Origin: an uncultured Carboxylicivirga sp. | GTDB taxonomy: Bacteria; Bacteroidota; Bacteroidia; Bacteroidales; Marinilabiliaceae | Assembly: GCA_947491945.1 (NCBI GenBank) | Contig: CANLLN010000004.1 | Coordinates: 62,001 to 126,000 of the forward strand | DNA length: 64,000 nucleotides | Direction of reading: 5' to 3' | Part shown: positions 1-17,741 of the stretch, one piece after another | Position numbering within the stretch: the first letter of the stretch is position 1 | Layout: each line of letters starts with the position of its first letter | Notes under the pieces: model-generated | The model's database searches: none | What the model saw: the letters and a program-made list of their open reading frames with translations, nothing else | Told to the model about the DNA's origin: nothing | Translations under genes and position numbers: made by a program

Positions 1-2511
1 TTTACCATGGCCGATCAATTGGGATGTTTGGCAGGCACTACCACTATTGAATCACCACTTAAGGGGGCTGGCTATTCCTACAAGTGGTCCGATGGTAGTA
101 CCGGCAGTAACCTGGATGTAAACGTAGCCGGTGATTACAGCCTCGAAATAACTGATGCCAATGGATGTGCTGCAAGTGATGATTTTCACTTTGATTTTTT
201 ACCTCCCAAACCCTTTGATTTAGGCGAAGACCGTGAAGAGTGTGCCGGCATTACATTAACGATCAATCAAGGAAGTGATTATAGCGATTATAAGTGGAGT
301 TTTCAGAAGGAGGGTGTTGGAGATATCAGCGAGATTCCGGGAGCAACCGATTCGATGTATAAAATTGAAAATGCCACCCCTGAAAATAGCGGCCGCTATT
401 ATGTAACGGCTATTGATAGAGATGGTTGTGCATTGGCGTCTGATGTACGTGTTTCATTTGTTGACGCGCCCGATCCTACGGTTTGGATCGATCAGGCACT
501 TTGTGAAGGAAAGGAGATCACGGTTTCTGTATCAAGTGGATATGAGAATTACAGATGGTGGCGCGAAGATTTAATTACGGGTGATAGAACAGCGTTAAGC
601 ACCTTTAATGATGCATCAAAAATATTAGTTTCTCAGGATGGGAAATACGAAGTGGAAGCGGTGATAGGCGGTTGTCAAAAAGTGAATGAAATTAAAGTAC
701 TGGAGCATGCTAATCCTAGCGTCTCGTTGGTAGCCCCGGATAATAAGTGTTCCGAGACGACTGCAATTGTAAGTGTCGATAGTTTTACGCCTGGTAGCGG
801 TGCCTTCGATTATTTGGTGTTTGATGGTGGCTTACGCCGCTACACCGATTGGAAGACTGCGGAGCTGGAAATAGAGCAAGCCGGTACCTACAGGGTAGAA
901 GCTTTCGACGAGTATGGCTGTTCAGCAATTGCTTCCGTGGATGTGGGAACTTACGCGACTACTTCAATAGAACTACCGGAGCAATCATCAACCTGCGAAA
1001 ACGTGGCACTTGTTCTGTCCAACCCCGTTGCCACAGCACGCAGCTATGATTGGTATAAAATTACAGCTGAAAGTGATCAGCTTGTGGCAAGCAACACCGC
1101 TTTGTTAACAACAGAATCAGGTTCTTATCGCCTTGTTGTAGAGGATGCTAATGGCTGCATGAATTCTGATACGGCAGTGGTGAGGGCTCTGCCGGTGCCG
1201 GCCATTGAGTTAGGTGTCGACCGTGAGATGTGTGCCGGCGATACCATCGTATTAGAAATTGATGATGCTTATGCCGGCTATCGTTGGAATGGTAATGACA
1301 ACCTTAATAAGCCTTACCTGGCAGTGACAGTTAGCAATAATTACTCGGTGGAAGTGACTAATGAGCACGGCTGTAAGGCCCAGGATGCCGTTCAGGTTGT
1401 AGTGAATCCATTGCCTGTTTTGCATGTTAATGATGTTTCAACGTGTAGTGGTGAGTTGGGCACACTGACAGTGCCTGCCGGACTTAGTAATTTTTACTGG
1501 TCCAATGGTGCCACAACACCTTCCATCACCGTTACCCGCGGTCTTTATACTCTCACCGCCAAGTCTGACAGAGGCTGCGTTGGTGAAACAAACGCCCGCG
1601 TAAATTGGTATCCGGTGCCCGATGTGTATATTGGGCCGGACACCGCCATCTGCCCCGTTGATACGCTTCTCTTAACTGCCAACGGTAATTTCGATTATTA
1701 CGAATGGCACAATGGCGATACGGGCCCCGTTTCAATGGCAAACATTGCCGATACGGTTAATGTGGTAAAGGTGCGTGATGAACATGGCTGCTGGGGCTTT
1801 GATACCCGAATGGTATATACCCTGCCGGCGCCCGACTATGAACTGTGCCCCGATACCGCATTGTGCGAGGGAGACTCTATTATGCTTGATGCAGGCTATG
1901 ACTATCTGGCATATCGTTGGTTTGATGGTAGTCCATTTCCGACCTATCATGTGAAGGAGCCCGGAGAATATTGGGTGCGTGTGCTCGATGGCTGCTTTTG
2001 GTTGCAGGATACAACAGCGATATTGTTTAACGAATCCCCCATTATCGCGCAGCTGGATACTACCATATACGGACAGGTGGGAGTGCTTGCCCAAGGAGGT
2101 ACTGAGCCCTATCGTTACGCCATTAATGAGGATAACTGGCAGGAGAGTAATGTATTTAAAGATCTTGATAATGGAAGTTATATATTGCAGGTGCAGGATG
2201 CTAATACTTGTATGGCAGTAGACACTGTAATGTTAAATGATCTAGTTGATATTACCGTTCCTAACTTTGTTACGCCTAACAACGATGGCTTTAATGATCG
2301 CTGGGAGATTGATGGGCTGGATAAATTTCCTGATTCTGTGATAAAAATTTATGATCGCTTTGGTAAACTGTTAGTTGAGTACAAAGCCTCGGAGGAGGGC
2401 TGGAACGGTGAGTACCTGGGACGGCCGGCTCCTTCCGATGCTTATTGGTATGTAATAGAAGTAGTGCCGTTAAAAAAAATGTTGAAAGGTCATATAACTC
2501 TTAAGCGATAG
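1..2511 (+). CDS. Type IX secretion substrate with Cys-paired beta modules and type B C-terminal domain (5' end outside window)
   Basis: The reading frame is open at the left edge, so the gene starts upstream; the first in-window ATG (position 7) is internal. About eight modules of roughly 85-100 residues follow one another. Each opens with a Cys near a V/I-x-L pattern (for example REECAG, QALCEG, REMCAG, DTALCEG) and closes with a second Cys in a D-x-x-GC-x-x-x-D motif, suggesting one disulfide per Ig-like module. The last ~85 residues (from VPNFVTPNNDGFNDRW) match the gliding-motility-associated CHU_C/type B T9SS sorting domain. The family is exported across the outer membrane by the type IX system and displayed or released at the surface, often as adhesins. 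The PorP/SprF gene begins 5 bp downstream, the usual partner arrangement. The ligand is unknown. Confidence 0.9.
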   Translation, partial: FTMADQLGCLAGTTTIESPLKGAGYSYKWSDGSTGSNLDVNVAGDYSLEITDANGCAASDDFHFDFLPPKPFDLGEDREECAGITLTINQGSDYSDYKWSFQKEGVGDISEIPGATDSMYKIENATPENSGRYYVTAIDRDGCALASDVRVSFVDAPDPTVWIDQALCEGKEITVSVSSGYENYRWWREDLITGDRTALSTFNDASKILVSQDGKYEVEAVIGGCQKVNEIKVLEHANPSVSLVAPDNKCSETTAIVSVDSFTPGSGAFDYLVFDGGLRRYTDWKTAELEIEQAGTYRVEAFDEYGCSAIASVDVGTYATTSIELPEQSSTCENVALVLSNPVATARSYDWYKITAESDQLVASNTALLTTESGSYRLVVEDANGCMNSDTAVVRALPVPAIELGVDREMCAGDTIVLEIDDAYAGYRWNGNDNLNKPYLAVTVSNNYSVEVTNEHGCKAQDAVQVVVNPLPVLHVNDVSTCSGELGTLTVPAGLSNFYWSNGATTPSITVTRGLYTLTAKSDRGCVGETNARVNWYPVPDVYIGPDTAICPVDTLLLTANGNFDYYEWHNGDTGPVSMANIADTVNVVKVRDEHGCWGFDTRMVYTLPAPDYELCPDTALCEGDSIMLDAGYDYLAYRWFDGSPFPTYHVKEPGEYWVRVLDGCFWLQDTTAILFNESPIIAQLDTTIYGQVGVLAQGGTEPYRYAINEDNWQESNVFKDLDNGSYILQVQDANTCMAVDTVMLNDLVDITVPNFVTPNNDGFNDRWEIDGLDKFPDSVIKIYDRFGKLLVEYKASEEGWNGEYLGRPAPSDAYWYVIEVVPLKKMLKGHITLKR

Positions 2512-2515
2512 CGGT

Positions 2516-3523
2516 ATGATGAAGCGATTATTGTTGCTCATAAGTTGTGTAGTAGCTTTTACTTCAGTGGGGGCTCAAAAGTACTATATTACTAATCAGT
2601 ATGTTTACGATTTGTATTTAATGAATCCGGCAGCTGCAGGTTTCTACAAGGGATGCTATGAGTTTAGTGGTTATTACCAAAAGCAGTGGTTTGGCATGGA
2701 GCAGGCACCTACCACACAGGTTCTCAGTTTTCAGGGGCCTTTAACTCAAAAGCTGGGTATCGGTAGTTATTTTTATAACGATCGCAATGGTTTTTATAGC
2801 GAGTTGGGTTTGCAGGCCTCCCTGTCCTACGAGGTGATGTTGATAAAAGACCGTAAGCGCACGGCATCCATGACCTTCGGTATGTCGCTGAATGTGGAGC
2901 AGAGTGCTGTTGATCAGGGTGATCTTACGGAGGGCGCCTTTGATGATCCGGCGCTGAGTGGCGCCAACGAAAGCGGATGGGGCTTTAATGGCAATGCCGG
3001 TATGCTGTTTAAATACAACGATTATCATCTTGGTTTTGCAGTGACCAATATCCTGCCACAAAACAACAAGATGTACCAAAATGAATATGAACCCGAACTT
3101 ACTTCCGATATTCATTTGCATGCGGGGACAACCTATAAAATTGCCGATCGAGATATTTTTCTGGAGCCATTGGTCATGTACCGCCGCAATATGCAGGTGA
3201 ACAGTAAGCTCGATTTAACGGCCAAGGCCACTTTTCCAACGCCTGATCCCGATTTTTCATTTTGGGGATTGATTGCTTACCGCCGTACCATGGACGATCA
3301 GTTTGGTAAAAGTCTTGGATTGGGAACTACCGCTGGCGTTCAGTTTAATAACATTATTGTTGGACTTGAGTTTCAGGCGGGTTTAACAGGTGCACAGCGC
3401 GATTATGGAAGTGCCTATCAGTTGATCTTGAAATACCGTCTCTGTCGTGATAAATCTAAGGGAGCAATTCCTTGTTCTGAAGCAAGCCGACTCGAAAGGA
3501 GCAGGCCGTCGAAGCGACGATAG
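2516..3523 (+). CDS. PorP/SprF family type IX secretion outer-membrane protein
   Basis: 335 residues. A signal peptide (MMKRLLLLISCVVAFTSVGA) is followed by the family signature QYVYDLYLMNPAAAGFYKG and QWFGMEQAPTTQ, then amphipathic beta strands typical of a 14-strand FadL-like barrel. PorP/SprF proteins sit in the outer membrane and help export or anchor type B CTD substrates; in Flavobacterium johnsoniae SprF is needed for SprB secretion. The gene starts 5 bp after the CHU_C protein and is surely co-transcribed. Its C-terminus carries a short basic tail (RLERSRPSKRR) after the last strand, which is unusual but may simply be periplasmic. An adjacent ATG pair gives two possible starts one codon apart. 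Confidence 0.9.
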   Translation: MMKRLLLLISCVVAFTSVGAQKYYITNQYVYDLYLMNPAAAGFYKGCYEFSGYYQKQWFGMEQAPTTQVLSFQGPLTQKLGIGSYFYNDRNGFYSELGLQASLSYEVMLIKDRKRTASMTFGMSLNVEQSAVDQGDLTEGAFDDPALSGANESGWGFNGNAGMLFKYNDYHLGFAVTNILPQNNKMYQNEYEPELTSDIHLHAGTTYKIADRDIFLEPLVMYRRNMQVNSKLDLTAKATFPTPDPDFSFWGLIAYRRTMDDQFGKSLGLGTTAGVQFNNIIVGLEFQAGLTGAQRDYGSAYQLILKYRLCRDKSKGAIPCSEASRLERSRPSKRR

Positions 3524-3544
3524 GAACGGGGAGGGTGTTTTTTA

Positions 3545-3574
3545 TTGTTTAGTGACTTATTAATGCTATTTTTG
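3545..3574 (+). promoter_or_regulatory. Promoter for the second CHU_C/PorP pair
   Basis: TATTTTTG at 3567-3574 fits the Bacteroidota -7 box (TAnnTTTG), 19 bp after a TTG at 3545-3547 that fits the -33 element. It lies 26 bp before the ATG at 3600, so the second substrate/PorP pair may be transcribed separately from the first. Confidence 0.55.
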
Positions 3575-3599
3575 ATAGTCCTACGCACACTTAAACCTT

Positions 3600-4505
3600 A
3601 TGCAAATTGGCCAGGCCATAGTCGTATGTATTCTTTTCTTTTCCTTCACTGCCCAAGGACAGGATAAGGTGTATGCCTATGATGATATGATTAAGGGCTT
3701 TGAAAACAGGGCTGTTAACATCCCCGTTTTAAATAATGATTTTGGCTTGACGAAGGGCATTGCCGGCTTTCGCATAAGCGAGCCAGCTGTGAACGGAGCG
3801 GCCATTATAGAGGATGATAACACCATCACCTTTATTCCCGATCGTTCTTTTGCCGGTAAGGATGAGTTTATCTACGAGGTGTGCAACACGGATGGCAGCT
3901 GCGATGAGGCCATTGTTTTTGTGGAAATTGAAGATGTGGACTTTATTCCTGAAGCGCATAATGATACTTTTACATACCTGCATGGTAGTGTTCTGCTTGT
4001 TGATTTTATAGCTAACGACCTGATAGAAGGGGATGAGCCCATTTCTATAAGTATCGAAGGCAAGCTATGGCAAGGCAATTATATTCTGAATGAGGATAAC
4101 ACTATGGAGTTATCCTTCGAGCGCCGATTTGTGGGTACCGACTCCCTTGACTATATTCTTTGTGATGCCGATAATGATTGTAGCCGGGCACGTATTATGA
4201 TTGATGTGCGCCATAGTGGCGATGTGGCTTTTTACCTTCCCGAAGGATTTTCACCCAATGGCGATGGTATTAATGATACCTTTTTCGTGCCCGATTTCAC
4301 TACCTACCGGGGGATTAGTATCAGCATAGCCGATGCATGGGGTAGCCTTGTTTATCAGCAAGATGATTATCAGAATGATTGGAATGGCGTGGCGAACCAG
4401 GGCCGAAATAAAGGGCAACACGTACCAGCGGGTACTTATTACTACTGCATTAATATCGAGGGTGTTTCAGAAACAATAACAGGCTTTGTATATGTGGCCA
4501 GGTAA
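3600..4505 (+). CDS. Short type IX secretion substrate with two cadherin/Ig-like domains and type B C-terminal domain
   Basis: 301 residues. Signal peptide (about residues 1-20, ending SFTAQG), then two tandem bacterial Ig/cadherin-like domains (about 24-118 and 119-212). Each has the D-x-x-x-T...N-D-x-x...F-x-P-D/R-R-x-F-x-G-x-D-x-x-x-Y pattern and a Cys pair (EVCNTDGSCDE; ILCDADNDCSR). The last ~85 residues (from PEGFSPNGDGINDTF) are the type B T9SS sorting domain. It is much smaller than the preceding substrate and could be a secreted or surface-bound partner of the next PorP protein. The 3' end overlaps the longest form of the next ORF, so translation of the two genes may be coupled. Function beyond secretion is not visible. 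Confidence 0.88.
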   Translation: MQIGQAIVVCILFFSFTAQGQDKVYAYDDMIKGFENRAVNIPVLNNDFGLTKGIAGFRISEPAVNGAAIIEDDNTITFIPDRSFAGKDEFIYEVCNTDGSCDEAIVFVEIEDVDFIPEAHNDTFTYLHGSVLLVDFIANDLIEGDEPISISIEGKLWQGNYILNEDNTMELSFERRFVGTDSLDYILCDADNDCSRARIMIDVRHSGDVAFYLPEGFSPNGDGINDTFFVPDFTTYRGISISIADAWGSLVYQQDDYQNDWNGVANQGRNKGQHVPAGTYYYCINIEGVSETITGFVYVAR

Positions 4506-4524
4506 TTGCATATATAAAGTTTTG

Positions 4525-5502
4525 ATGCATAGCAGGCAATTTTGTTTGTTCTGTGTGCTGCTCATGTCTCTGAATATATTTGCGCAAGGGGATGGGATCA
4601 CCACGCAATATATGAATTCACAATTAATGATTAATCCGGCCTATGCCGGGGTGCGCAATGCCTTTAGTGTGCATCTGCTCGCCCGTCAGCAGTGGGTAGG
4701 CATGGAGGGAGCCCCTGCAACGTATTCCATCAGCATGCATACGCCCCTGAACGATCGTATGGCCTCGCTAGGTGCAAGTTTGCTCCACTATCAGAGTGGT
4801 CCCATCAACCACAGTGAGTTCAGTGCCATGTACAGCTATATGCTGCGTATTAATCATCAGCTGTTCCTCTCTTTGGGCCTGAGTGCGCAATGTAACTATT
4901 ACCATCTTGGTCTTTCATCGCTTGAGTTAATAGAGGAGAATGACCCAAGCTTTATGCACAAGTTTGGTAATGGCGTGAAGCCTAATTTTGGTGTGGGAGT
5001 GTTTTTGTTTTCCCCACACTTTTATTTAGGTCTTTCAATGCCTAAGGTCATGAATAGCAGACTGAAATTGAAAGAAAATGATGCCCTGGTGCTGGAGTCA
5101 GTACACACGGCATATCTCACATCGGGTTATGCTTTTAGTATCAATAAGAGTGCTTATCTAAAGCCTTCTTTTGTTGTTCGTTATCGCAGCCAGGCAAGCC
5201 CCCTGGGGGATATGAATATTCAGTTTATGTATAAAAATATATTTTGGCTGGGCACATCTTATCGCACTAACGATACCATGGCAGCCCTGGCAAATATTCA
5301 ACTGGGTGAGGCTTTAAGCGTGTGTTATTCTTATGATTTTGCCATTGGCAATAGTCCTCGGTTTGGGAGTGGCACTCATGAGGTGGCGCTTGTTTTCGAC
5401 AGCCATAAATTAATTAAGCGTAACCGTGACCGACAATTCAGGCGTAAAAAAGTGGCAAAAAAGGAGGAGAACAAAGCCCTGCATTCCATACGTTATTTTT
5501 AG
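4525..5502 (+). CDS. PorP/SprF family type IX secretion outer-membrane protein (second copy)
   Basis: 325 residues from the ATG at 4525. This start is preferred over an in-frame ATG at 4486, which lies inside the previous gene, because it opens directly onto a signal peptide (MHSRQFCLFCVLLMSLNIFA). The family motifs QYMNSQLMINPAYAGVRNAF and QQWVGMEGAPATYS are clear, followed by alternating amphipathic strands. It is only distantly similar to the PorP at 2516-3523, so this is not a recent duplication. By family knowledge it should assist secretion or anchoring of the type B substrate encoded just upstream. The tail is very basic (residues about 300-325, KRNRDRQFRRKKVAKKEE), which could mark a periplasmic or membrane-proximal extension. 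Confidence 0.88.
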   Translation: MHSRQFCLFCVLLMSLNIFAQGDGITTQYMNSQLMINPAYAGVRNAFSVHLLARQQWVGMEGAPATYSISMHTPLNDRMASLGASLLHYQSGPINHSEFSAMYSYMLRINHQLFLSLGLSAQCNYYHLGLSSLELIEENDPSFMHKFGNGVKPNFGVGVFLFSPHFYLGLSMPKVMNSRLKLKENDALVLESVHTAYLTSGYAFSINKSAYLKPSFVVRYRSQASPLGDMNIQFMYKNIFWLGTSYRTNDTMAALANIQLGEALSVCYSYDFAIGNSPRFGSGTHEVALVFDSHKLIKRNRDRQFRRKKVAKKEENKALHSIRYF

Positions 5503-5504
5503 AT

Positions 5505-5531
5505 AAAAAAAAATGCCGGGGTTGCCGGCAT
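5505..5531 (-). terminator. Intrinsic terminator of the WMT-repeat gene
   Basis: Read on the minus strand, a perfect 7-bp stem (ATGCCGG / CCGGCAT, loop of 5) is followed by a run of nine T. It starts 3 bp past the PorP stop codon and ends the minus-strand gene at 5573-6196. Confidence 0.85.
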
Positions 5532-5572
5532 TGAGTTATTGAGTTGTCATGAATTTATTGTTTGAGCGTGTA

Positions 5573-6196
5573 CTATCTTAGCGCCATCAATATGTTATTA
5601 TCAATTTCTAATTCAATGGTTTTAATACCTTCTACAATACTAAGCTCCATGCTGTATTTATAGAGGCTGGTCATCCATCCTTCCAGCTCAAGTGTCTCAT
5701 CAGTTGCGGCCATCAGGTATTCGGGCGAGGTGCTAAAAAATTCATCCAGACTGGTCATCCATGGTTCAATGTCAAGCGGATACTCTTCAACCACATTGCT
5801 GGCTCTTGGTGCGTTTTTGTCATTAGAGGCCAATAATTCCTTTTCTTCAAACTGATAGCTGTCCATGCTTGTCATCCAATCCTCAACTGCTGTATCGTAA
5901 TCTTCAGTGTTGTACGACGACAAGTCCATCATCCACTCTTCCAAGGCAATTTCTTCATTTTCTTCCAATGTAATGTAGTTTTCTAAGTCTGTCATCCAGG
6001 CTTCTGTTTCCAGTTGGGGTTCTTCAGCGGCAAAGCTCTGCATATCGGTCATCCATGCCTCAATACTTAATTCCATTTCGTAATCGGGTATATCAACAGC
6101 TATTGGATTGGCATTCAGGTTAAAGCTCATGGTAAGAACAAGAAAGAATACACTTGAAACAACTACTGCGCGGTTTACTCTACTTAAAGTTTTCAT
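5573..6196 (-). CDS. Secreted acidic protein with six WMT repeats, function unknown
   Basis: 207 residues. An N-terminal signal peptide (about residues 1-29, hydrophobic core VVVSSVFFLVLTMSF, ending NLNANP) precedes a highly acidic body with six copies of a ten-residue motif of consensus E-x-W-M-T-[DS]-[LM]-x-x-[FY]. The Trp residues are at 48, 67, 88, 107, 146 and 174, with spacings of 19, 21, 19, 39 and 28 residues separated by Glu/Asp-rich linkers; the third copy reads WMMD. There is no Cys, no lipobox and no T9SS sorting domain. I know of no characterised function; similar WM-repeat proteins occur in other Bacteroidota (from memory, not searched). It has its own terminator and is convergent with the PorP gene. 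A repetitive peptide-precursor, surface or periplasmic binding role is possible but unproven. Confidence 0.75.
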   Translation of the reverse strand: MKTLSRVNRAVVVSSVFFLVLTMSFNLNANPIAVDIPDYEMELSIEAWMTDMQSFAAEEPQLETEAWMTDLENYITLEENEEIALEEWMMDLSSYNTEDYDTAVEDWMTSMDSYQFEEKELLASNDKNAPRASNVVEEYPLDIEPWMTSLDEFFSTSPEYLMAATDETLELEGWMTSLYKYSMELSIVEGIKTIELEIDNNILMALR

Positions 6197-6514
6197 GACA
6201 ATGTTTTTTAGTAATTAACAACGCTTCAAGTACTTCAATTGATGTGCCGAAATTTGTAAGTGCCTAATAGATAGCAACTAGGGTGTAATAAGAGATGAAT
6301 TAATCTTTTATTATTGACCGCATGCGTAACAGTAGGGTGTTCGAAAGTGAACAGGGATGCATTTGTAAACAGGAATTTATGGACACCGGATGTCGAATGG
6401 ACTTTATTTGGGTTGTGATGCTTCAACAATTTATCGTACTTTTGCTTGTTGTAAATGCATATTGGCGTATGTATTGATGCAAAAAACAATTAAAGCAGTA
6501 AATAAATAGTAGAT
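6197..6514. other. Intergenic region between divergent genes
   Basis: 318 bp separating the minus-strand WMT-repeat gene from the plus-strand cyclophilin gene. It should hold both promoters; only the plus-strand one (6413-6444) is recognisable. An 84-codon minus-strand frame here has no family features and runs through the promoter. Confidence 0.6.
6413..6444 (+). promoter_or_regulatory. Promoter for the cyclophilin-DUF3127 operon
   Basis: TACTTTTG at 6437-6444 matches the TAnnTTTG -7 box; a TTG at 6413-6415 lies 21 bp upstream. The start codon at 6515 leaves a leader of about 65 nt. Confidence 0.5.
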
Positions 6515-6970
6515 ATGAAAACAGCAGAAATTCATACGGAAAAGGGCATCATGAAGGTGGAATTCTATGAGAATGATGCACCCAAAACAGTAGATAATTT
6601 TATTAAGCTTGCCAAGGAAGGATTTTACGATGGCTTATCTTTTCACCGGGTGATACCTGATTTTGTGATTCAGGGAGGTTGTCCTCATTCACGCGATAAG
6701 AGTAGTCCAAGAGCCGGAACAGGAGGTCCCGGATATAGCATTGATTGTGAGCTGGATGGTGATAATCAATATCACGATCGCGGTGTTTTGTCCATGGCAC
6801 ATGCAGGACGTAACACTGGTGGATCGCAGTTTTTTATATGTCACGGACGTGAAAATACCCAACATCTCGATCGTCAGCACACTTGCTTTGGTAAAGTGGT
6901 TGATGGTTTGGATGTGATAGACGATATTCGTCAGGGAGATGAGATAATTAAAATTGTAGTAAACGAATAG
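6515..6970 (+). CDS. ppiB: Peptidyl-prolyl cis-trans isomerase, cyclophilin type, cytoplasmic
   Basis: 151 residues, the usual length of a single-domain bacterial cyclophilin. It catalyses cis-trans isomerisation of Xaa-Pro bonds during folding. Visible motifs are the catalytic [13 protein letters not shown] (Arg45), GTGGPGY, the substrate-groove GGSQFFI and a [12 protein letters not shown] segment, where many homologues read HLDGKHTVFG. There is no signal peptide, so it is cytoplasmic. The stop is 11 bp before the DUF3127 gene, with which it should form an operon. Confidence 0.92.
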
Positions 6971-6981
6971 TAGCCCGTAGT

Positions 6982-7356
6982 ATGAATTTTGAAATATCAG
7001 GAAGCGTCATCGTTAAGGATGACATACAGGAAATAAGTGCCAGCTTTAAAAAACGTGAGTTTGTGATAGAAGTTGTGAATGAGCGCAATTCAGATTGGAA
7101 TGACTTTGTTAAGTTTCAGCTGACTCAGGATCGATGCAGCTTATTGGATCCCATTCAGTTGGGCGACCAAATTAAAGTAAACTTCAATATTCGTGGTCGT
7201 AAGTGGGAAAAGAATGGTCGTGTGAATTATTTCTCTAACCTGGAAGCATGGCGTATCGAGAAGGAGGAGGCAGCTTTGCCACCCGATGCTCCTGCGCCTT
7301 CATTCAGTGAAGCCGATATACCGCCGGCAAGCCCCGAAGAAGACTTGCCCTTCTAA
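6982..7356 (+). CDS. DUF3127 protein with SSB-like acidic C-terminal tip
   Basis: 124 residues. The body (about 1-95) matches the Bacteroidota family DUF3127: MNFEISGSVI, the KKREFVIEV strand, the GDQIKVNFNIRGRKWEKNGR hairpin and the LEAWRIEK ending, consistent with a small OB-like fold. A Pro/Ala/Glu-rich linker follows, and the last residues are EEDLPF, closely resembling the DDIPF tip through which bacterial SSB recruits repair proteins. I infer a nucleic-acid-binding, SSB-like role; no biochemical function is established to my knowledge. It follows ppiB by 11 bp and has an intrinsic terminator right after it. Confidence 0.8.
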   Translation: MNFEISGSVIVKDDIQEISASFKKREFVIEVVNERNSDWNDFVKFQLTQDRCSLLDPIQLGDQIKVNFNIRGRKWEKNGRVNYFSNLEAWRIEKEEAALPPDAPAPSFSEADIPPASPEEDLPF

Positions 7357-7364
7357 TAACATAC

Positions 7365-7396
7365 AAATCCTGAGCCGTCCGGTTCAGGATTTTTTT
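7365..7396 (+). terminator. Intrinsic terminator after the ppiB-DUF3127 operon
   Basis: A stem ATCCTGAGCC / GGTTCAGGAT (one G-T pair, loop GTCC) is followed by a T run at 7391-7396, just past the stop codon of the DUF3127 gene. Confidence 0.9.
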
Positions 7397-7425
7397 ATTC
7401 CCAATTATGGATTAATATACCGGAA

Positions 7426-8580
7426 ATGACACGAAGCAATGAGAAGTTTCAGATGGGAAAGGTGAGCCTGCTTACCTTGGCTCATTTTTTTCACGATGTT
7501 TACACCGCTTTTTTAGCACCACTCTTACCGTTACTGCGCGACACGATGGGCATCAGTCTTACTTTCGCGGGTTTGTTATCCGTTGTGCAACGTTTGCCTA
7601 CACTGTTTAATCCACTAGTGGGTATGCTTGCCGAACGCACCCGGGCCCGCTATTTTGTTATCTTCACACCGGCTCTCACAGCCATAGCCATGAGTTTAGT
7701 GCCAGTGGCACCCAACAAAATTACCCTGGTGTTTTTAGTGCTGTTGAGTGGTGTTAGTAGCTCTTTTTTTCATGTGCCCTCACCAGTGATGATGCGCAAG
7801 GTATCCGGCAAGCGTGTGGGTATGGGTATGAGCTTTTATATGGTGGGTGGAGAGCTGGCACGTTCGGCAGGTCCCGTAGCAGTGCTGGGTGCCGTTGAGC
7901 TATGGGGCTTGCAGGGTGTCACCTATTTTATCCCCACCGGCATATTGGCTTCTACTTTGCTTTACTTCAGGTTGAAAGATATTGCTATTGCTGAGGATGT
8001 ACATAGTGCCGGGCGACTGGAGTACTTAAAAACTTTTCGTAATGTATTTCCACTGGTGGCCAGTATTGCGCTGATTATAGCTTTCCGGGCAGCCATGAAG
8101 TCGGCGCTTACTTTCTATCTGCCCATATTTTTGAAGAGTAGGGGCGAATCCTTATGGTTTGCCGGTATTGCTTTGTCCATATTGCAAGCAGCAGGGGTGG
8201 TAGGTACTTTTTTTGCCGGTACCATATCTGATAAAATAGGTCGTCGTAGCACTTTACTGATAGCATGTGTGGGGGCACCCGTATTTTTTTACGCCTTTTT
8301 ATACAGTGGAGGATGGCTGCAAATAGTCATGCTGATAATCACCGGGCTATTTGTATTTTCTACCGGCCCGGTGTTTCTGGCCATTGTTAATGAATATAAA
8401 ACGCAGCACAATAACTTTGTTAATGCCGTGTATATGTCTACAACCTTTTTGATTGGGGCGGTAATGGTTATGCTGGTTGGCTTAATGGGCGATTATCTTA
8501 GTCTTGAGCTGACTTATAAAATTGCCGGTGCACTTGCTTTTCTGTCGGTTCCAGTAGTGCTTCGTATGCCAAAGAAGTAA
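7426..8580 (+). CDS. MFS transporter, fosmidomycin-resistance (Fsr)-like
   Basis: 384 residues with about 12 hydrophobic segments. The N-terminal HFFHDVYTAFLAPLLPLL, the following GLLSVVQRLPTLFNPLVG, the FHVPSPVMMRKVSGKRVG loop and the SFYMVGGELARSAGP segment resemble the Fsr/fosmidomycin-resistance branch of the major facilitator superfamily, where the corresponding signatures are SHFLND and SSVFHPESSR. A second-half motif (SDKIGRRSTLL) is the standard MFS loop. It is an inner-membrane, proton-driven exporter; the natural substrate is unknown and drug resistance cannot be claimed from sequence. It stands alone behind a terminator and is convergent with the radical SAM gene 7 bp away. Confidence 0.82.
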   Translation: MTRSNEKFQMGKVSLLTLAHFFHDVYTAFLAPLLPLLRDTMGISLTFAGLLSVVQRLPTLFNPLVGMLAERTRARYFVIFTPALTAIAMSLVPVAPNKITLVFLVLLSGVSSSFFHVPSPVMMRKVSGKRVGMGMSFYMVGGELARSAGPVAVLGAVELWGLQGVTYFIPTGILASTLLYFRLKDIAIAEDVHSAGRLEYLKTFRNVFPLVASIALIIAFRAAMKSALTFYLPIFLKSRGESLWFAGIALSILQAAGVVGTFFAGTISDKIGRRSTLLIACVGAPVFFYAFLYSGGWLQIVMLIITGLFVFSTGPVFLAIVNEYKTQHNNFVNAVYMSTTFLIGAVMVMLVGLMGDYLSLELTYKIAGALAFLSVPVVLRMPKK

Positions 8581-15144: not shown

Positions 15145-16446
15145 TTACTTACCCGGTGTGGGTACCGACTTGTCTATGTCTATGTCACCCATCACAAAGT
15201 GCTTTGGCCCTAGCTTCAGGTCACTGTTGAGCATTTCGTCCCAACTGACTGTTTTACCACTGTAGGCCGATACACGTCCCATGATTGCAGTTAAGGTGGC
15301 TTCGGCAATATGCTTGGTTTCGTTGATGGGTTTTTTGTTGCGTATAGCACTTACCAGATCGATGTGTTCCTGAGTAAAGGCGCGCCAGAAGAAGTGCCAA
15401 CGATCTTTTTCCTGTGCTTCCGTCAGTGGATATTTCCATCTCACCTCACCCTGCGGATTGAAGATGGTGTTTTCGCAATTGGTGTAGCCATTGGTGCCCC
15501 GCAAATGGTCGCTCACATTGGTGTCGCACCCGTTAATCTGACGGCACATACTGTGTACATGCACCCGGTTGGGATACACATAATCTACGCTGAAATTATC
15601 GTATTGATCGCCCGTTGTTCGTCGTTGCCGGCTGCCAAAACCCGTTGCTTTTTCGGGTGTTGCGCCAATGTACCAGTTCATCAGATCCAGATTGTGAATA
15701 TGCTGCTCTACAATGTGATCGCCCGATAGCCAACACCAATTGACCCAATTGCGCAGCATGGCTTCCATTTCGCTCCATTCAGCATGGGGATTTACATGCC
15801 ATAGCTTGCCTTGGTTATAATAGCAGTTGCCTGCGGTAATTTCGCCAATGGCTCCTTGCTGTATTTTTTGATAGGTGGCCAGATAATCTTCCTGGTGCCG
15901 CTTGATGGTGCCGGTAACTACCGATAGTCCCATCTCCTGCGAGCGTATGCCGTTAATGAGGATGCTACGCACACCGGCAGGATCAACAGCTATGGGTTTT
16001 TCCATAAAAATATGCTTACCGGCTTTCACCGCTGCTTCAAAGTGCTGTGGCCTGAAAAAGGGAGGTGTCGCCATTAGCACAATATCAACGCCTGCATCAA
16101 TCACTTTTTCATAAGCATCAAAGCCCACAAAGCATTTCTCTGAATCGATCTCAATACCCCTTTCTTTTTTCAGGTTGGTGCGGCAGTTCTGTAGTTTATC
16201 CTCAAACACATCGCCCAGAGCCACCAGTTCCAGTGAAGGTCCGGCATCCAGAAAATTTATGGCAGCGCCTGTTCCCCTCGCACCACAGCCAATAAGTCCG
16301 GCCTTCAGTACAGGGCCATCGGGTGCCGATGAGGGCAGGGGCGTTGCCCGGTTAGATTGACGACAGCTGAGGGCGCCGGCAGCCAGGCTAAATCCGGTGG
16401 CCAGCAGACCTTTATTGATAAAATCGCGACGATTATGCTTGTTCAT
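15145..16446 (-). CDS. TAT-exported Gfo/Idh/MocA-family oxidoreductase
   Basis: 433 residues. The N-terminus NRRDFINKGLLATGFSLAAGALSC is a twin-arginine signal, so the protein is folded with its cofactor before export. A Rossmann fold follows (LKAGLIGCGARGTGAA), with the family's MEKPIAVDP motif and a substrate domain with EQHIHNLDLMNWY. Members use NAD(P) to oxidise or reduce sugars, polyols and related compounds; TAT-exported ones are common in Bacteroidota and Planctomycetes and may act on polysaccharide-derived sugars. The substrate is unknown. The gene starts 5 bp after the stop of the cytochrome-FGE fusion, an arrangement that suggests a joint periplasmic task. Confidence 0.88.
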   Translation of the reverse strand: MNKHNRRDFINKGLLATGFSLAAGALSCRQSNRATPLPSSAPDGPVLKAGLIGCGARGTGAAINFLDAGPSLELVALGDVFEDKLQNCRTNLKKERGIEIDSEKCFVGFDAYEKVIDAGVDIVLMATPPFFRPQHFEAAVKAGKHIFMEKPIAVDPAGVRSILINGIRSQEMGLSVVTGTIKRHQEDYLATYQKIQQGAIGEITAGNCYYNQGKLWHVNPHAEWSEMEAMLRNWVNWCWLSGDHIVEQHIHNLDLMNWYIGATPEKATGFGSRQRRTTGDQYDNFSVDYVYPNRVHVHSMCRQINGCDTNVSDHLRGTNGYTNCENTIFNPQGEVRWKYPLTEAQEKDRWHFFWRAFTQEHIDLVSAIRNKKPINETKHIAEATLTAIMGRVSAYSGKTVSWDEMLNSDLKLGPKHFVMGDIDIDKSVPTPGK

Positions 16447-16451
16447 AATGA

Positions 16452-17741
16452 TTATTTTACGTTTGTCGGATAACTTAATACTACCCTAAATCCCACATCG
16501 TTACAGTCGGAATACCACCAGATGCTTTTGGGTATCTGCGGATCGGTCTTTAGCCAGTTATCATGTTGGGTTGGCTCTCGCATGGAGGGCGATAAGGTAT
16601 TTGGATCTGACTTGAACGATCCGCCTTTGATAACAAATTCGTTGCTGCCCTTACTGTAAACATCGCTACAGAATTCCTTGACGTTGCCAAACAGGTGGCG
16701 GGCACCAATGCCATCGGCTTCCACCGCCTGTGGGGGTAGGGTTGATGTACCGTTGGTATTCACATATTGCGTGTCTGGTTTAAGTTGGGCAAATGCTTTG
16801 GTGGCAGCGTATTCCCATTCGGCTTCGGTGGGTAAGCGGTATTTTTTACCTGTTTTTGCTGATAGCCATTGGCAATAGACTGTAGCAGCATGGTGTGTCA
16901 TGGTAATGGCAGGGCGCTGGCCAAGTCCCCATCCTTGATCGGGATTACCCCAGGGAGGTGTGGCGCCCGAAATACCGTCCAGTTTTGTATTTTCGCTTCG
17001 CCCTTCCGCCTCTGTTTCGGATAAAAATAGGAGATATTCATCCCAGCTGACTTCATTGGCACCCATATAAAAGGGCTTAATGGTATTAGGGCTTTCATCC
17101 TGCAGACTGTCCACTGCAATCATGTCAAAAGCAATGCCACTGCCCGGTAGGGTTTCTGTAAAGGCAGTAAAGCCGGTAATGGTGGCTGCCTGCTGGTAGA
17201 GTGTATCTTTTTTTTCCGGATTTGTGATAAAGGTCAGGTTGCTTCCCGGCTTTTGCGGCTTGCCGTGTCCGGTATTTGTATGGCAGCGTATGCAGTGCAT
17301 TTCATCTTGATGCTGCATGTAATGCCAGTGAGCCTGTTCTCCACTTTTACTCAGCCCAGCCGGGAATAATTCGGGATGACAGGCGATGCACGAAGTTTTA
17401 AAAGTATAGGGATGGGTATCATCTGCCCGGCGTTGCTTCCAGCTGTATTCGCTGGTGTCTTTAAAATGATAGGCGTATAGGTCGCGCAGTCCTGCTTTTA
17501 CCTTTTCGGCATAATGCCTCTGTCCCTTGGGTGGAAGATGGCAGTCTACGCATGAGGCATGGGCGCATTGAAGGGTGTCGTTGTGCATGGATCCGCGCCA
17601 GCTCTGGTGAGCATGCTCGTGCGCATGGCAACTGTTACAATAGGTATCGGTCGATGTGTATTGGTCGGCTTTAATAAATAAAAACCGAAGCAATACGCCA
17701 AGTATGCTTAGCATTATAAGGAAGCTGACACCCTTTTTCAT
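16452..17741 (-). CDS. Fusion of NapC/NirT-type tetraheme cytochrome c and formylglycine-generating-enzyme-like domain
   Basis: 429 residues. A single N-terminal membrane anchor (about residues 5-24) is followed by four CXXCH heme motifs at residues 35-39 (CNSCH), 64-68 (CVDCH), 118-122 (CIACH) and 150-154 (CIRCH), a pattern like the NrfH/NapC quinol-oxidising cytochromes. From about residue 200 to the end is an FGE/SUMF1-type domain with [39 protein letters not shown] and DVGFRVV. Proteins with this domain include the sulfatase-activating enzyme and non-catalytic relatives such as GldK/GldJ. I infer an inner-membrane, periplasm-facing redox protein that takes electrons from quinol. The two domains are joined in one uninterrupted frame. 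Confidence 0.88.

Follow-up and report, generated by a model that had tools for sequence, protein, structure and literature searches.

A tetraheme cytochrome fused to an FGE-like domain in Carboxylicivirga and other Bacteroidales: a predicted electron-transfer partner of an exported Gfo/Idh/MocA dehydrogenase

Introduction

Membrane anchors of the NrfH/NapC/CymA group carry an N-terminal helix, four CXXCH motifs, and a lysine and an aspartate at the quinone site, and NrfH/NapC proteins usually pass electrons from quinol to an enzyme. The fold of the formylglycine-generating enzyme (FGE) is shared by FGE, PvdO, EgtB and GldK/GldJ, together with core motifs including GNVxE and GFR; GldK and GldJ are structural members of this fold. 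The glucose-fructose oxidoreductase (GFOR) of Zymomonas is exported by the Tat route, keeps its nicotinamide cofactor, and recycles it with a second sugar, with no electron-transfer partner. For the exported Gfo/Idh/MocA enzymes found in many bacteria, the regeneration of the nicotinamide cofactor is, to our knowledge, an open question in the field. In the 3-ketoglycoside systems, LacA is a flavin enzyme of the GMC type.

LacABC is reported to form the dehydrogenase part of 3-ketoglycoside systems in other bacteria, and LacABC and its kin comprise a membrane-linked extracytosolic sugar dehydrogenase located near DUF1080 3-ketoglycoside hydrolases (PMC9007349). ApbE joins FMN to the last residue of the motif D-x-x-[S/T]-G-A-[S/T], and changes of G to A or of A to V within the motif lowered flavinylation, to about 50% (PMC12052999). 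The ApbE-flavinylated proteins NqrC, RnfG, NosR, UrdA, DUF2271 and DUF3570 are extracytosolic and contain the exact motif with a threonine acceptor. In the main texts of PMC8238504 and PMC11334425, the words "formylglycine" and "gfo" have no occurrences.

The locus described here lies in a window of 64,000 nucleotides (the whole stretch of DNA that was analysed) from an uncultured Carboxylicivirga sp. Its fused protein shares the helix, the four CXXCH motifs and the quinone-site lysine and aspartate with the NrfH/NapC/CymA anchors, from which it differs in being joined to an FGE-fold domain and in having a Gfo/Idh/MocA partner, not NrfA or NapA. The fold and the core motifs are those of FGE, PvdO, EgtB and GldK/GldJ, whereas the copper-cysteine pair is missing and a D-x-x-[ST]-x-x-[TS] segment and a DPQxPKSxWW signature are present. 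The exact motif with a threonine acceptor and the extracytosolic setting recall the ApbE-flavinylated proteins, and ApbE neighbours occur beside some of the tetraheme-free relatives, as for ApbE-flavinylated electron-transfer proteins; the fold, however, is different. As in LacABC, an extracytosolic sugar dehydrogenase is associated with DUF1080 hydrolases, but here a Gfo-type dehydrogenase with a separate heme/flavin partner is predicted. GFOR resembles the Gfo partner in Tat export and fold (1h6d, 1evj), yet works without an electron-transfer partner.

Neither a quinone-linked tetraheme anchor fused with a domain of the FGE fold nor a formylglycine-generating enzyme together with a c-type cytochrome was found in the open-access literature, in line with the suggestion of the initial annotation that the architecture was undescribed. 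ApbE paired with formylglycine-generating enzymes was likewise not found in the open-access literature, which is no proof of absence.

The fused gene is an intact frame with an old, real architecture

The fused gene is one unbroken ATG frame of 429 amino acid residues at positions 16452-17741 (minus strand; all features below are on this strand), exactly where the initial annotation had placed it. In Pfam searches, Cytochrom_NNT matched residues 6-163 (E = 1.9e-20) and FGE-sulfatase matched residues 219-389 (16575-17087; E = 2.4e-18), both above the gathering score, and four CXXCH motifs begin at residues 35, 64, 118 and 150. The reading frame, Pfam and Foldseek thus agree with the earlier description of a NapC/NrfH-like anchor with four CXXCH motifs joined to an FGE-like domain. 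A membrane helix is predicted at residues 2-29 (17655-17738) from the hydrophobic sequence and from the AlphaFold2 model. The mean pLDDT of this model was 73 (61 sequences); the C-terminal domain was mostly confident, with many blocks above 90, and the confidence over the heme region was poor, as expected because the hemes were absent from the modelling. The model matched PvdO, FGE structures and their relatives in Foldseek, with a TM-score of 0.35 over the whole query and about 0.5 over the target.

The distribution of the gene was followed in genomes and loci, which are labelled G### and L###, respectively (G000 being the window's own genome). Full fused homologues were found in 14 of the best 80 of 405 relatives in a species-genome scan, all from Bacteroidales and their kin (e.g., Sunxiuqinia, Maribellus, Tannerella and Parabacteroides). 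Adding the window itself and 28 stretches from the family's genomes gives 43 loci. From these, 42 distinct fused proteins were clustered, the window's included, and two pairs of them are more than 95% alike; the 43rd locus, L138, which stands outside the 42, also carries the fused gene and a Gfo gene. Counted from match rows, the full-length fused protein occurs in 38 of the 295 genomes of the window's order, and it occurs in 3 of the 395 genomes of a phylum sample. Of 14 genomes in the genus, 10 carry the gene, a patchy distribution, and the window's own genome has a single full-length copy. The window's protein and its close relatives in the genus are short (about 430 aa, as against about 510 aa in L004-L017), and they are without some loops of the FGE domain.

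The same domain order and four CXXCH motifs were present in all 42 distinct proteins, so the domain order recurs elsewhere in Bacteroidota and the absence of a frameshift at the junction, as originally read, is borne out. On a tree of the FGE domain with 81 rows, the 24 tetraheme rows formed one group (100/99, the bootstrap not being fully settled). The seeming split copies of the fused gene in G301 and G222 are contig ends. The possibility that the frame is an assembly or sequencing artefact, which the initial annotation had itself put forward together with homologues that are always two genes, was therefore dropped, and its probability is practically negligible: the 42 same-order proteins, the single clade formed by the 24 that were placed on the tree, and the contig ends all stand against it. 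The tetraheme-FGE fusion is an old, real architecture.

Heme sites and putative quinone site of the anchor

The four heme sites are C35NSCH39 (17625-17639), C64VDCH68 (17538-17552), C118IACH122 (17376-17390) and C150IRCH154 (17280-17294), and their eight cysteines and four histidines were kept in 42/42 fused proteins. H41 (17619-17621), a histidine in 42/42, aligned with the methionine of CTSCHIM in 2j7a_C, which we take to be Met49, the heme 1 ligand of D. vulgaris NrfH; NrfH thus differs from the fused protein in having Met, and not His, after its heme 1 motif. With H53, H138 and H159, each also present in 42/42, and the CXXCH histidines, the protein would have enough histidines for bis-His ligation of all four hemes. 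K80 and D87 (17481-17504) aligned with the lysine and aspartate of 2j7a_C, presumably the quinone-site residues of NrfH, and are putative quinone-site residues here; K80 was present in 42/42 and D87 in 41/42 fused proteins. In the NCBIfam NrfH equivalog model the fused protein scored 67.5 bits against a cut-off of 134.2.

The FGE-like domain lacks the copper site of FGE

Copper FGEs have two cysteines in the GGS segment, which corresponds to residues 373-388 (16578-16625) of the window's protein and contains no cysteine there. A C-x4-C pair in this segment was absent from 42/42 fused and 53/53 tetraheme-free proteins (95 examined, the window's included); L015, L030 and L054 (tetraheme-free) have two cysteines in the segment at other spacings. 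A distinctive signature, DPQxPKSxWW, marks the subfamily at residues 400-409 (16515-16544); in it, D400, P401, P404, S406 and W408 were invariant in 61/61 aligned proteins. C290 was invariant in the fused proteins and present in 43/53 tetraheme-free ones, and C358 was present in 42/42 fused but only 4/53 tetraheme-free proteins; a redox pair of the two was considered.

The first reading of the window was of an active formylglycine-generating enzyme (or another copper oxidase) wired to hemes. The FGE fold itself is present by Pfam (PF03781) and Foldseek, but the copper cysteines that this reading called for are missing from the window's GGS segment, the C-x4-C pair is missing from all 95 proteins, and the constant partner is a dehydrogenase, which together make such an enzyme very improbable. 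The identity of an active copper FGE was ruled out by the missing pair. What stands of the earlier reading is a predicted quinone-linked tetraheme anchor carrying an FGE-fold domain, to which the conserved quinone-site residues add, without an active copper FGE on it. Among the tested proteins of the FGE-like subfamily, no NCBIfam model reached its cut-off; the fused protein scored 38.4 bits with the GldK model, whose cut-off is 350 bits, and an identity as the T9SS proteins GldK/GldJ was ruled out by scores so far under the cut-offs.

An exported Gfo/Idh/MocA dehydrogenase is the constant partner

The gene that begins 5 bases after the fused gene (15145-16446) encodes an exported oxidoreductase with both the Gfo/Idh/MocA Pfam domains and the EKP motif of the family. 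The twin arginine R6-R7 of its Tat signal (16426-16431) and the lipobox-like cysteine C28 (16363-16365) were each invariant in 15/15 sequences, and a Tat motif with a cysteine after it was found in 40/40 adjacent Gfo proteins. The EKP motif (E149-K150-P151, 15994-16002), whose lysine we take to be the catalytic lysine of the family, was likewise present in 40/40, and D79, invariant in 15/15, suggests NAD as the probable cofactor. The model of the Gfo protein had a mean pLDDT of 84, and its Foldseek matches included inositol and sugar dehydrogenases, an aldose-aldose oxidoreductase, GFOR, and NAD-dependent glycosidases (8qc5, 8qc8). The NCBIfam equivalog of the BT_2158 glycoside 3-dehydrogenase gave 24 bits, against 750.

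Of the 42 loci, 40 have the Gfo gene next to the fused gene and on its strand (downstream in 39, upstream in L013), whereas in L139 and L140 no Gfo gene adjoins it. Another 17 loci come from the order (L154-L170, of which L155 encodes the same proteins as L017): the Gfo gene directly follows the fused gene on its strand in 14, is on the opposite strand in two, and is non-adjacent in one (L169). The genomes of L139, L140 and L169 (among G069, G070 and G337) hold a Gfo gene elsewhere. At an E-value cut-off of 1e-110 or below, which was chosen by us, and with the best five candidates per genome scored, the Gfo subgroup was found in 38/38 fused-positive genomes and in 1/257 of the other genomes of the order (Fisher's test 3e-47, which ignores kinship); G222, which holds just a piece of the fused gene where a contig ends and in which no Gfo protein reached the cut-off, was counted as negative. 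G228 (L175:3956-5404) was the only one of the 295 genomes with the Gfo subgroup and no fused gene, and an ApbE match is absent from it too. In the phylum sample (E ≤ 1e-60 for the FGE-like domain and ≤ 1e-75 for Gfo), Gfo was found in 34/34 genomes with the FGE-like domain, of which 3 are fused and 31 match the FGE part only, versus 30/361 genomes without it; in 29 of the 34 the pair is adjacent on one strand by the listed coordinates. On these co-occurrence tables, the fused protein and the Gfo protein are very likely partners. The earlier reading had missed both this partner gene and the flavinylation motif described below, and the better explanation uses both.

The structural matches also allow for the Gfo protein as a redox-neutral NAD-dependent glycosidase that oxidises, eliminates and reduces as GH109 does, the flavin-heme protein merely rescuing enzyme stuck with NADH. 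NAD-dependent glycoside hydrolases of the same fold exist (8qc5, 8qc8), and a GH109-type gene lies upstream in L113; the partner Gfo protein, however, has no match to the GH109 C-terminus, and a rescue role would hardly demand such strict pairing, so that we consider a glycosidase quite improbable and retain the dehydrogenase as the preferred assignment.

A predicted flavinylation motif and the distribution of ApbE

Residues D255-G-I-S-G-A-T261 (16959-16979) of the window's protein form an exact ApbE flavinylation motif as defined in PMC12052999, with T261 as the predicted FMN site. Among the 42 fused proteins, the D, the G and the T were invariant, position 258 was S or T, and position 260 was A in 29 proteins and P in the other 13; the exact D-x-x-[S/T]-G-A-[S/T] was therefore present in 29/42, the window's included. 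The D was also invariant in the 53 tetraheme-free proteins, in which position 261 was T in 35 and S in 18, so that the D and the T/S were kept in all 95 proteins; the exact SGAT was present in 5/53, most of the rest carrying P at 260. Among 13 ordinary FGE proteins, D at 255 with T/S at 261 was found in none: most have no residues at this place, K occupies 261 in L073 and L078, and L075 has S without the D. Among the 1396 unique proteins of all loci examined, the strict motif occurred, once duplicates were removed, in 31 fused proteins, 5 tetraheme-free FGE-like proteins and 1 unrelated protein. No known FMN-bind Pfam domain was found in the fused protein. From the motif, we infer that FMN may be covalently bound to T261.

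By gene-family counting, ApbE genes were present in 18 of the 53 tetraheme-free loci, all 18 confirmed as Pfam ApbE, and at most one gene lies between ApbE and the FGE-like gene in 17 of them (the exception is L048). ApbE was found near none of the 13 ordinary FGE genes and near none of the 42 fused genes. Further ApbE matches in L036, L044, L057 and L060 appear from their coordinates to be frames antisense to the FGE gene and are not counted among the 18. None of the 18 ApbE-bearing loci has the exact motif, and proteins with the exact motif have a local ApbE in 0/34 cases versus 18/61 for the others, a comparison confounded by kinship; since, in addition, several genomes with the P variant hold a single ApbE, no inference was drawn from this link. 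At the genome level, ApbE was present in 37 of the 38 fused-positive genomes, which says little because it is so common in the order (268/295). The window's genome has one ApbE (G000:C20:45553-46380). At L180:1210-2409 this gene adjoins a 376-aa protein that by inspection resembles an efflux adaptor, and no strict-motif protein was seen near it within 3.8 kb.

The FGE-like domain might alternatively be flavin-free, a docking or sugar-binding scaffold that keeps Gfo at the membrane, with D-x5-T as a structural loop. The structural role of the FGE-fold relatives GldK/GldJ (matched below the NCBIfam cut-offs) and the P at the A position of the motif in many members are consistent with a scaffold. 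Against it stand the exact motif in 29/42 fused and 5/53 tetraheme-free proteins, its occurrence in only one non-FGE-like protein among the 1396, and the ApbE genes in 18/53 tetraheme-free loci; moreover, a bare scaffold would give no route from NADH to heme. We regard the scaffold as unlikely and prefer a flavin-bearing domain.

Tetraheme-free relatives and other heme fusions

Loci L018-L069 and L076 make up the tetraheme-free FGE-like set (53 loci), whose sources are Planctomycetota, Verrucomicrobiota, Acidobacteriota, other Bacteroidota and further groups; five of the loci carry PSCyt1. In 35 of these loci a Gfo gene on the same strand starts no more than 0.8 kb downstream, and in two it lies upstream; it is cut by a contig end in L041 and more distant in L020. 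In L058, the FGE-like gene, ApbE and Gfo are consecutive on one strand with ApbE in the centre (L058:2470-4492, and Gfo after). No Gfo was found in 13 of the 53 loci, which include L021, at a contig end, and four of the five PSCyt1 fusions. A Gfo gene of this type was found in 0/13 ordinary FGE loci. The tetraheme-free relatives reveal the FGE-like domain and Gfo as the core unit. An FGE-like/Gfo fusion in L018, L039 and L060 was ruled out, the reading frames being over-extended.

L032, L033, L037, L043 and L044, all from Verrucomicrobiota and outside the tetraheme clade, encode PSCyt1, a planctomycete cytochrome c, in one protein with this FGE-like domain; only L033 has an adjoining Gfo gene. 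These fusions are scattered on the FGE-domain tree, and L059 and L067, which stand beside them, are cut at the contig start and may be unrecognised PSCyt1 fusions. PSCyt1 on the FGE-like domain fits a redox domain with varied outlets, although four of the five lack a nearby Gfo gene. A cluster with a YceI-like gene adjoins the FGE-like gene in L019, L027, L031, L051 and L061 (verified by Pfam in L019, no Pfam match in L051); YceI proteins bind isoprenoids or quinones.

Proposed electron-transfer chain

We favour, with a probability of about 0.55, a chain from sugar to Gfo-bound NAD, to FMN on the FGE-fold domain, to the four hemes and on to menaquinone. The fused protein would be the membrane-anchored electron-transfer partner of the neighbouring exported sugar dehydrogenase, which would leave the cell folded, with NAD bound, by the Tat route and, judged from the gene neighbours, would oxidise an alcohol of a sugar or glycoside by 3-ketoglycoside-type chemistry. 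Its NADH would be re-oxidised by the FMN that ApbE had attached to Thr261, where the two-electron hydride would be converted to single electrons; these would travel over the four hemes to the NrfH-type quinone site and there reduce menaquinone. The tethered FMN is placed between Gfo and the hemes because transfer from NADH to heme would need such a two-to-one-electron converter. The contact of Gfo with the FGE domain, the substrate and the direction of electron flow are further parts that we infer. Genes near the loci, identified through representatives of their families, include 3-keto-disaccharide hydrolase (DUF1080), ThuA, xylose-isomerase-like TIM barrels, GMC and gluconate-2-dh3, and these fit 3-ketoglycoside chemistry.

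The oxidation of a sugar alcohol is downhill by menaquinone and uphill by free NAD, and from these potentials the direction from sugar through NAD, FMN and heme to menaquinone is favoured. Electrons might instead pass from menaquinol through the hemes and the flavin to Gfo, which would then reduce 3-keto sugars outside the cytoplasm. The NrfH/NapC relatives are quinol oxidases with the usual flow from quinol to enzyme, the quinone-site lysine and aspartate are retained, and GMC dehydrogenase genes, potential makers of keto-sugars, lie near the tetraheme-free genes in L030, L035 and L045; the step from menaquinol to NAD would nevertheless be uphill, and reducing sugars with quinol would be energetically costly. 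We judge reverse flow to be rather unlikely. Counting against the oxidative chain that we prefer are, besides the usual NrfH/NapC direction, the P at the A position of the motif in 13/42 fused and most tetraheme-free proteins, the lack of the exact motif in all 18 ApbE-bearing loci, the absence of ApbE near the fused genes and of an FMN-bind domain in the window's protein, the near-universal presence of ApbE in the order, the low confidence of the cytochrome part of the model, the four of five PSCyt1 fusions with no Gfo nearby, the fragment-bearing genome G222 without Gfo at the cut-off, and the patchy occurrence in the genus.

Taken as a whole, there is somewhat less than an even chance that this is a novel extracytosolic respiratory dehydrogenase system of Bacteroidota, Verrucomicrobiota, Planctomycetota and Acidobacteriota. 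In it, an exported NAD-dependent sugar dehydrogenase would pass hydride to ApbE-fixed FMN on an FGE fold, a new class of ApbE substrate, and hemes would have been added at least twice (the NrfH-type tetraheme in Bacteroidales and PSCyt1 in Verrucomicrobiota), giving access to the quinone or cytochrome pool. ApbE-linked extracytosolic electron transfer is thereby predicted to have a new flavin-bearing fold and a new kind of partner. If true, an obligate flavin-heme partner would answer how exported Gfo enzymes regenerate their nicotinamide cofactor, many "SUMF1-like" proteins would gain a first function, the FGE fold would join the ApbE substrates, and respiration would be tied directly to the oxidation of glycans by Bacteroidales of the gut and the environment. 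In L113, the region upstream of the fused gene (1538-7898) holds GH109-type and GH2 genes by Pfam and a sulfatase-like gene by inspection, a hint at an oxidised glycan.
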